From Alphaproteobacteria bacterium (GTDB lineage Bacteria > Pseudomonadota > Alphaproteobacteria > RF32 > CAG-239), in NCBI GenBank assembly GCA_017964705.1, contig JAGCRL010000051.1, positions 1 to 13,816 on the forward strand: a stretch of DNA of 13,816 nucleotides, in the 5' to 3' direction. The notes beneath the pieces are model-generated. The model was not told the origin of the DNA and ran no database searches. It saw only the letters and a list, made by a program, of their open reading frames with translations. Shown here one piece after another: positions 6,730-9,562 of the stretch (positions are counted from its first letter, which is position 1; the number at the start of each line of letters is the position of its first letter). Position numbers and translations under genes: made by a program.

Positions 6730-7491
6730 TTATTGTTTACTTGCAGCCGCAATGGCCATAAAATCAGCTGCTTTTAAGCTGGCACCGCCGATTAAGCCAC
6801 CATCAACATCTGGCAATGCCAGTAATTCTTTTGCATTACTTGGTTTCATACTGCCACCGTAAAGCAAGCGCATTTTATTGGCATTTGCTTTTCCTAATTT
6901 TTGAGCAATAACTTTGCGAATAGCAGCGTGTACTTCCTCAACTTCTGCAGTTGTCGGGGTTCTGCCAGTGCCAATTGCCCAAACAGGCTCATAGGCAATT
7001 ACTGTATTTGCACCGGTGGAAACAGATGGTACAGAGCCTTTAATTTGTGCTGTGCAAACGGATATCGTTTTACCAGCATCACGTTCTTTTTCTGTTTCAC
7101 CAATACAGATAATTACTTTTAACCCTGCTTTAATTGCTGCTTCTGCTTTTTGTGCTATCAGTTCATTTGTTTCTTTATGATTTGTACGACGTTCAGAATG
7201 CCCTACAATAACATATTGACAGCCTAGGTCTTTTAACATAACAGGACTAATATCTCCTGTATGAGCACCCTTTTCTGCATAATGACAATCTTGTGCGCCC
7301 AACATAACCTTTGAGCCCCTAATTGCTTTTTTGCATAAAGCTACCAATGTAAATGGAGGACAAATCAAAAACTCACAATCTTTACGTGCTGCTTTTTTAA
7401 CTTCTTGAGCAATCGTTTTTGCTAAAGCAACACCTTCGGCTGACAATTCATTCATTTTCCAGTTGCCGGCAAATAAAGTTTATCTTATCAT
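6730..7491 (-). CDS. tpiA: Triosephosphate isomerase with an in-frame TAA at codon 4
   Basis: It interconverts dihydroxyacetone phosphate and glyceraldehyde 3-phosphate in glycolysis and gluconeogenesis. The barrel is complete: GNWKMN near the start, catalytic His in VGHSERR (about residue 98) and Glu in YEPVWAIGTG (about 168, with flexible loop 6), then LLYGGSMKPSN and GGLIGGASL. The natural start is the ATG at 7489-7491, 9 bases after AAGGA (7501-7505 on the opposite strand). Read from there the protein is M-I-R-stop-T-L-F-A-G-N-W-K-M-N, with TAA at 7480-7482 where the family often has Lys (AAA). No ATG, GTG or TTG lies between this stop and the catalytic Asn and Lys. The next start, ATG 7453-7455, gives 241 residues but begins just after the catalytic Lys. 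Everything downstream is intact, so this is a sequence error, a recent nonsense mutation or readthrough. It heads the tpiA-secG string. Confidence 0.93.
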
Positions 7492-7528
7492 CTTAATCTT
7501 TCCTTAAAATTATAACAATTATCTTTTT

Positions 7529-7642: not shown

Positions 7643-7678
7643 AGTGAACAATCTGATTATTTTTTAGGGATGAAAAAC

Positions 7679-9562
7679 ATGATAACTAAATTAGCTAAAG
7701 CAAAAGACAATTGGTTTTTTAAAATTATTTCCGCTGCGGTTGCCGTCAGCTTTATCTCGTTATTCGGGGTTACTGGATATATCAGTAGTGCAAGTCAGAA
7801 CCAAACCGTTGTTAAAGTCGGTAAAAAAAGCATTTCTCAAAGTGAATACAATTATCGTTTGCAAAAAGAGCTTAATGCCGTTAAAAATCTTGCCGCTGAA
7901 GATTTTGAAATTTCTGATGAAATGAAAACAGCTATTACGGAAAATGTTTTAAAACAACTGGTTAATGATAGCGTGCTAGATCAGGCTATGATTAAGTATG
8001 GTGTTTATTTTCCTAAAGCTTTTATTACTCAAGTTATCACTAACCAACCTGAATTTAAGAATCCTGCAAACGGACAATTTCATCCCGAATTGTTTAAACG
8101 TTATCTTTCATCTGCAGGTTTAAGTGAACAAGAGTATGTTGCTAATATTGAAAGAGCCATGGCTCGGAAAATGATGGTGATGGATTTGGTGCAGCCATTT
8201 GCTATTCCAAATGTTTTAAGCCAAGCTGTGCATAAGATGGATAACTTACGTAAATCCTTCAAATATACTGTTGTATCTCCTAAAGATATTAAAATTGAGA
8301 GACAAATCACTGATGATGAAATTAAACAATATTTTGAGGATTTTAGCGAAACATTCATGCTGCCTGAATTACGAGAAGCAAAAGTTGTATTTATCCCAAA
8401 TGATGTTATTATTCGTAAATATGCAGCAAATGATGAATTAGCTGAAGATTATTTTAAGCAAAATAAGGCTGAACTGGATCAACCGGAAAAAAGAGAAATT
8501 GATCAACTGGTATTTATGGATAAAGAAAATGCCGAAAAAGCTTTGGAAGCCGTGAAAAACGGTCAGAGTTTTGCTGATATTGCTTCAGACTTAAAAGCCG
8601 AGAATGCATCTAATCCTTCTTTAGGGATTGTAGCTCAAGATGAACTTGCCGAAGATTTGGCTGAGCCGGTATTTGATATGCAGTCAGGCGAAATTAAACT
8701 TTTACCTGTTGCTGATACATACCAAGTTGTAAGGGTAAAAAACATTATTCCTGCTAAAGAAGCTGTGTTTGATGAAGTAAAGGCTCAAATTATGGAAAGA
8801 CTGGCTAATGAAAATATGTATGATGCTTTACGAGAAGCCAGAGCGACAATTGATGATACAGTTAATGGTGGTAAAGGTTTAGACGAAGTGGCGAATTTGT
8901 TTGGAGTTGAACCTTTTGTAGTATCTGATATTGCAGAAGAAACTTTAATTTCTCAGGTTCCTGACTTTGCAAAGGATTTATCTGCTTCGTTAGAATTTAA
9001 TGATTTGATTTACTCTTATGGACTTGATGAAACAACATCTGCTGAAGAATTTGATAACGGTATTATGGTTGCTCAAATTACCAAAATTACTGATGCTCAT
9101 ATGCCAGAAATAGAACAAGTTCGTGATCAAATTATCGCGTTGTGGACCGTACAAGAAAAGAATGCTCTTGCAAAAGAGATTGCCGATAATATTGTTACCG
9201 ATGTGGAAGATGGAAGCGAACTTGCAGATGCCGCAAAGGCTCGTGATTTAGAAGCTTTTCGTTCGGCACCAATTAATCGTAATGAAACATTTGCTAACCT
9301 TAGCCATATGGAGATTAATGAACTGTTTTTAGCGGAACAAGATACCGTTAAACTATTTGAACATCCTGATAACAGCTATATTATAGCTAGACCTTTTGAA
9401 ACTATTAATTTTGAGGATGAATTAACAGAAGATAGTTTGAAAGAAGTTCAAACCAGAGCACAAACTTATTGGTTCTCTGATATGGTTCAGGCGGCACTGG
9501 ATAGTTACGCTAATGACTTCAAAATTAAAATTGACTATAAAAAAGCTGGATTTGAAGAATAA
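7679..9562 (+). CDS. ppiD: Membrane-anchored peptidyl-prolyl isomerase of the PpiD/SurA type
   Basis: This is a periplasmic folding factor anchored in the inner membrane, which in studied bacteria sits at the exit of the SecYEG channel. A single helix lies near residues 14-34 after a basic N-terminus. A SurA-N-like chaperone region (about 42-195) opens with VVKVGKKSISQSEYNYRLQ. A parvulin-like domain (about 270-360) has REIDQLVF, FADIASDL, LGIVAQDEL, PVFDMQSGEI and YQVVRVKNI. A C-terminal SurA-like helical part follows. The usual catalytic parvulin signature is weak, as in many PpiD proteins. There are two in-frame ATGs: AGGG touches the first (7670), while the second (7679) is 8 bases past AGGGA and is preferred. 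At about 627 residues the length is normal. It is divergent from tpiA-secG, a typical alphaproteobacterial neighbourhood, and its stop overlaps the fmt start by one base (TAATG). Confidence 0.93.
   Translation: MITKLAKAKDNWFFKIISAAVAVSFISLFGVTGYISSASQNQTVVKVGKKSISQSEYNYRLQKELNAVKNLAAEDFEISDEMKTAITENVLKQLVNDSVLDQAMIKYGVYFPKAFITQVITNQPEFKNPANGQFHPELFKRYLSSAGLSEQEYVANIERAMARKMMVMDLVQPFAIPNVLSQAVHKMDNLRKSFKYTVVSPKDIKIERQITDDEIKQYFEDFSETFMLPELREAKVVFIPNDVIIRKYAANDELAEDYFKQNKAELDQPEKREIDQLVFMDKENAEKALEAVKNGQSFADIASDLKAENASNPSLGIVAQDELAEDLAEPVFDMQSGEIKLLPVADTYQVVRVKNIIPAKEAVFDEVKAQIMERLANENMYDALREARATIDDTVNGGKGLDEVANLFGVEPFVVSDIAEETLISQVPDFAKDLSASLEFNDLIYSYGLDETTSAEEFDNGIMVAQITKITDAHMPEIEQVRDQIIALWTVQEKNALAKEIADNIVTDVEDGSELADAAKARDLEAFRSAPINRNETFANLSHMEINELFLAEQDTVKLFEHPDNSYIIARPFETINFEDELTEDSLKEVQTRAQTYWFSDMVQAALDSYANDFKIKIDYKKAGFEE

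Follow-up and report, generated by a model that had tools for sequence, protein, structure and literature searches.

A tpiA gene, encoding triosephosphate isomerase (TIM), in an alphaproteobacterial metagenome-assembled genome (MAG; GTDB RF32, CAG-239) is interrupted at its fourth codon by an in-frame TAA, which separates the apparent ribosome-binding site and start codon from an otherwise complete coding frame. This raises the question of whether the living cell carries a broken glycolytic gene, makes the enzyme in spite of the stop, or has an ordinary gene that was recorded wrongly. Here we examine the 13,816-nucleotide stretch of contig JAGCRL010000051.1 (assembly GCA_017964705.1) that contains the gene, hereafter the window, together with homologous genes from relatives and other genes of the same MAG; positions are those of the window.

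The interrupted start of tpiA

A letter-by-letter check of the minus strand places the tpiA ATG at 7491-7489 and the codon-4 TAA at 7482-7480, in frame with one another and preceded by a Shine-Dalgarno-like sequence, exactly as the first-pass annotation had read them (Table 1). The codons 3' of this TAA are ACT TTA TTT GCC GGC AAC TGG AAA ATG, and the frame stays open from 7479 down to its own TAA at 6732-6730. Six of the 17 genus relatives likewise carry TATAAT in the 51 bases that precede the start.

Table 1. Features at the tpiA locus of the window.
Feature	Position	Strand	Basis
Candidate -10 element TATAAT	7509..7514	-	By eye, just 5' of the Shine-Dalgarno-like sequence
Shine-Dalgarno-like AAGGA	7501..7505	-	Read directly
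tpiA start ATG ATA AGA with in-frame TAA (codon 4)	7480..7491	-	Direct reading; DNA of relatives
Phe codon TTT at codon 7, the other private change	7471..7473	-	Ile in all covering aligned homologues
Perfect small inverted repeat ATAAA-C-TTTAT	7473..7483	-	Read by eye, no significance test
Intact remainder of the TIM frame (249 sense codons, then TAA)	6730..7479	-	PF00121, translation
241-aa ORF, probable annotator choice, lacking Asn-x-Lys	6730..7455	-	ORF reading

The identity of the gene is clear from the frame that follows the stop, which matches PF00121 with 313.4 bits against a curated cut-off of 20.1. The active-site residues of TIM, given as Lys12, His94 and Glu164 in PMC7022633, all lie in the tpiA frame, within GNWK, VGHSERR and AYEPVW. 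They are not united in one product, however, because the lysine sits between the codon-4 stop and the next in-frame ATG. By direct reading there is no in-frame ATG, GTG or TTG between the stop and N-W-K, as had been claimed from the sequence at first pass, and the near-cognate codons ATT, ATC, ATA, CTG, ACG, AAG and AGG are likewise missing from that interval of the frame. The next ATG, at 7455, opens an ORF of 241 aa that starts immediately past the catalytic lysine, which bears out the earlier expectation of a product lacking this residue. Taken as it stands, the message would encode a stub of three residues; the most that could follow is a 241-aa protein with weak initiation that lacks the catalytic lysine.

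Conservation of the start and translation of the message

We read the DNA of the tpiA start in 29 relatives, 17 from the same genus and 12 from the family. Codon 1 is ATG in all 29; codon 4, at which the first-pass annotation had expected a lysine codon, is AAA in 27 and AAG in 2; and codon 7 is ATT in 26, ATC in 2 and ATA in 1. The same picture emerges from a protein alignment of the best 120 of 670 matches, in which the first codons are covered by 117 homologues (the exceptions being P0085 and P0096, whose listed start is the Met that follows the lysine, and P0095, with a start still deeper in the protein). Every one of the 117 has Lys at codon 4 and Ile at codon 7, where the window alone has Phe. 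Judged from these alignments, the departure of the codon-4 stop from the TIM family is far beyond chance. On a broader scale, a tpiA match was found in 147 of 152 genomes of the family (the window's genome included), in 6 of the 147 as fragments only. Among the 141 with a near-full-length gene, only the window's genome has an open frame of 249 codons, the other 140 having at least 252, a result that comes mostly from frame lengths and not from DNA letters. A family trait is thus ruled out (0 of 29 relatives by DNA, 0 of 140 other near-full-length frames), and across the genomes compared the lesion is private to this one.

Could the cell nevertheless make a working enzyme from this message? Translation from the ATG at 7455 into a 241-aa protein with some function is, in our view, very improbable: the ORF exists, and an equivalent start is given for two database proteins, P0085 (241 aa) and P0096 (240 aa; longest contig 43,425 bases). 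The product would, however, lack the first strand as well as the active-site lysine, a longer start is the rule among the aligned homologues (117 of 120), and for P0085 and P0096 the short start may have been picked by the gene caller, the alternative being similar lesions of their own.

Equally hard to credit is that the codon-4 TAA is read through or recoded and full-length TIM made. The frame 3' of the TAA is intact and under purifying selection, which counts in its favour. The mean pN/pS of the window's tpiA against genus relatives of equal length is 0.173, inside the range of 0.098–0.183 for 13 others (with pS near saturation), so that the remainder of the gene shows no relaxation of selection, although a very recent lesion would be invisible to this measure. 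On the other hand, TAA and TAG terminate the window's other genes; of 12 tabulated genes, nine end in TAA (tpiA included) and three in TAG, in agreement with the first-pass view that TAA is a normal stop here and that the code has not been reassigned. Nor does any of the 19 tRNA genes typed by ARAGORN, among 20 tRNA matches in the genome, have a stop-reading anticodon, though these matches lack roughly half of a full tRNA set, and a suppressor may lie outside them. The remaining match (L277, 1501-1586, minus strand; 40.7 bits) was left untyped by ARAGORN at its usual threshold, and at a lowered threshold stop-anticodon candidates appeared among 11 and 13 weak matches, which we take as noise. 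Finally, the relatives have no stop at codon 4, so a conserved recoding site is absent.

Codons 4 to 7 and the closest known copy

The closest database protein among the matches listed, P0002 (253 aa; three member sequences from two contigs, the longest 12,725 bases), is free of the lesion: its N-terminus reads MIRKSLIAGNWK where the window has MIR-stop-TLFAGNWK. The two are the same at 250 of 253 codons, and all three differences fall within codons 4-7, with Lys, Ser and Ile in P0002 against stop, Thr and Phe in the window at codons 4, 5 and 7, respectively. Under random placement, the chance that all three would fall in four adjacent codons, leaving the remaining 249 unchanged, is 2.8e-4. 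The first-pass annotation had held that a single T/A change explains the anomaly; this does not survive the comparison, as the window carries two private changes, at 7482 (the stop) and at 7473 (codon 7), nine bases apart, with the third difference from P0002 (codon 5) lying between them. Both the codon-7 change and the intact P0002 are additions to that earlier account. At columns that are otherwise at least 99% uniform, the codon-7 Phe is the sole private change of the window; of the 121 aligned proteins 97 have none at these near-invariant columns, 20 have one and four have two or three.

The same codons set the window apart from CALXWH010000006.1, a contig of the uncultured Alphaproteobacteria MAG BRZ_CV__bin18 and the nearest named relative among the matches listed (86% identity), which appears to be the same contig as locus L003 of our genome set. 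Gene order around tpiA, the ATG and its frame, and the sequence past codon 7 are common to both, whereas in this relative the window's stop and Phe are replaced by a lysine codon (AAA) and Ile, at codons 4 and 7, respectively. DNA closer to the window was not found, with nothing above 86% in public genome contigs among the 80 loci listed and no match in viral contigs; both collections may omit entries from this genome itself or from very close ones.

That the anomaly is a cluster of changes points to a local sequence problem, and the second private change alongside the stop, together with the intact near-identical copy, makes a sequence or assembly error the most likely explanation. We thus consider it probable that the codon-4 TAA reflects clustered errors and is not carried by the living cell. 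A small group of wrong or badly resolved bases in codons 4 to 7 (7482-7471) would have arisen in a fragmented MAG, where coverage at the tpiA start was probably thin, and the reads would be expected not to support the TAA. On this view the true gene would be a normal tpiA that starts at the usual place, with the fault in the record and not in the cell. One observation at this site fits less well. The Ser at codon 5 of P0002 is unique among the 117 covering proteins, differing from the window and from the relatives alike, so independent errors in the window do not account for it; P0002 may come from another strain, in which case the comparison would not be one within the same organism.

The slow decay of a pseudogene is ruled out by the identity with P0002 outside codons 4-7 together with the normal pN/pS. 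A real and recent loss-of-function allele, which would leave a strain without active TIM, is a different matter, for its recent origin would agree with that same identity. Such an allele might have arisen in one multi-base event at the inverted repeat: the private bases at 7482 and 7473 fall one in each arm of ATAAA-C-TTTAT, and by eye they turn into pairs the two mismatches that the relatives' letters would leave in this site. A one-way template switch at the repeat does not fit, with one change in each arm. We nonetheless regard a real allele as unlikely, as TIM is near-universal in the family (147/152 genomes), the genome search for another tpiA that had been proposed at first pass found no second PF00121 match in this 81.87% complete genome, and two rare states so close together are also what a cluster of errors resembles.

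Internal stops elsewhere in the source genome

If errors of this kind are present in the MAG, other genes might show them. The assembly (G000) comprises 1,228,036 bases in 283 contigs, with 81.87% completeness and 3.15% contamination. Low-coverage or low-quality reads can lead to spurious internal stops, and with low quality stops outnumber frameshifts, according to the portion of the source available to us (PMC11017572). As reference we took G006, the genome with the closest tpiA among those searched. ORFs drawn from 1,111,332 of its bases were compared with 80 of the 283 contigs (358,491 bases, the window's included), a survey that covered 132 genes and 38,895 codons. The forward run (G006 ORFs on G000) gave 11 in-frame stops in the 132 genes. 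Seven were set aside for lying in the first 11 codons of the longest G006 ORF, mostly over-extended past the likely start; tpiA was kept despite the position of its stop because the 29 relatives fix both the start and codon 4. This leaves tpiA and three other conserved genes. The reverse run gave nine stops in seven of 126 G006 genes, all in the first 30 or last seven codons and set aside, leaving no internal stop. To produce four stops in 38,895 codons, random substitution would need a frequency of about 7e-4 per base. The surplus of internal stops in G000 relative to G006 falls short of significance (Fisher p 0.067 when tpiA, a gene chosen beforehand, is counted).

No frameshift was found in the 132 compared genes. 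Two forward genes matched in two pieces were rejected as frameshifts: at L165 the match spans two tRNA genes on contig C217, and L230 is an over-extended ORF overlapping another gene.

The three further genes each contain a lone internal stop. A gene we take to be GlyA-like (L165, contig C217, position 2440, plus strand) has TGA in place of a Gly codon; another, presumably cytidine-deaminase-like (L240, contig C109, 4029, minus strand), has TAA for Glu; and the gene for pyruvate phosphate dikinase (PPDK; L222, contig C16, 9235, minus strand) has TGA for Arg at codon 754 of 899. Among 18 genomes of the genus, G000 was the only one to show the PPDK and GlyA stops, with some others giving partial, split or weak matches; for the deaminase gene one TAA is also present in G010 and no match was found in G003.

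The pre-stop piece of PPDK is identical to the database protein P0242, which is exactly 753 aa long and comes from an 11,147-base contig, the G000 copy being on a contig of 13,132 bases. The stop is thus present in a second assembly record, which perhaps derives from one and the same sample, and could represent a true allele. Its recurrence indicates that not every stop of G000 is an error of one assembly, which keeps a real nonsense mutation in tpiA a serious rival.

As a group, these cases are like the spurious pseudogenes described in the part of PMC11017572 available to us in having lone internal stops in conserved genes, no frameshifts and a fragmented assembly. They are unlike them, within the same part of that source, in that the window's changes are clustered within nine bases and in that the coverage of this MAG is presumed to be low.

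Next to tpiA lies a divergent ppiD/SurA-like gene (7670-9562). A near-identical fragment of its protein, P0187, has one difference in 401 residues, begins at an internal Met (window 8357) and comes from a 1,644-base contig; no near-identical full-length copy is present among the 120 matches listed. That such a copy is found only as a fragment on a short contig fits a poorly assembling stretch. A chimeric contig has no support, the gene order being the same as in G006.

The Ser at codon 5 of P0002, the recurrence of the PPDK stop and the non-significant excess of internal stops count against a sequence error. Of the three explanations left open at first pass, an error nonetheless gains from the clustering of changes, a nonsense mutation stands as its rival, and readthrough is unsupported, with none of the 19 typed tRNAs reading a stop. 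In its most specific form, the rival has one hairpin-linked event altering two bases and silencing the organism's only TIM, in a host-associated population that either lives without the enzyme or reads through the stop, and in which PPDK is broken as well; we consider this somewhat less likely still than a real allele in general.

For the MAG itself, a clustered error would mean that any annotated tpiA would be a false short form without the catalytic lysine. The locus also illustrates how a conspicuous stop can be judged when no reads are at hand: an adjacent private change and an intact near-identical copy mark the problem as local. If the stop is real, this would be a natural TIM-null strain and moderately interesting with regard to how host-associated bacteria organise their metabolism.
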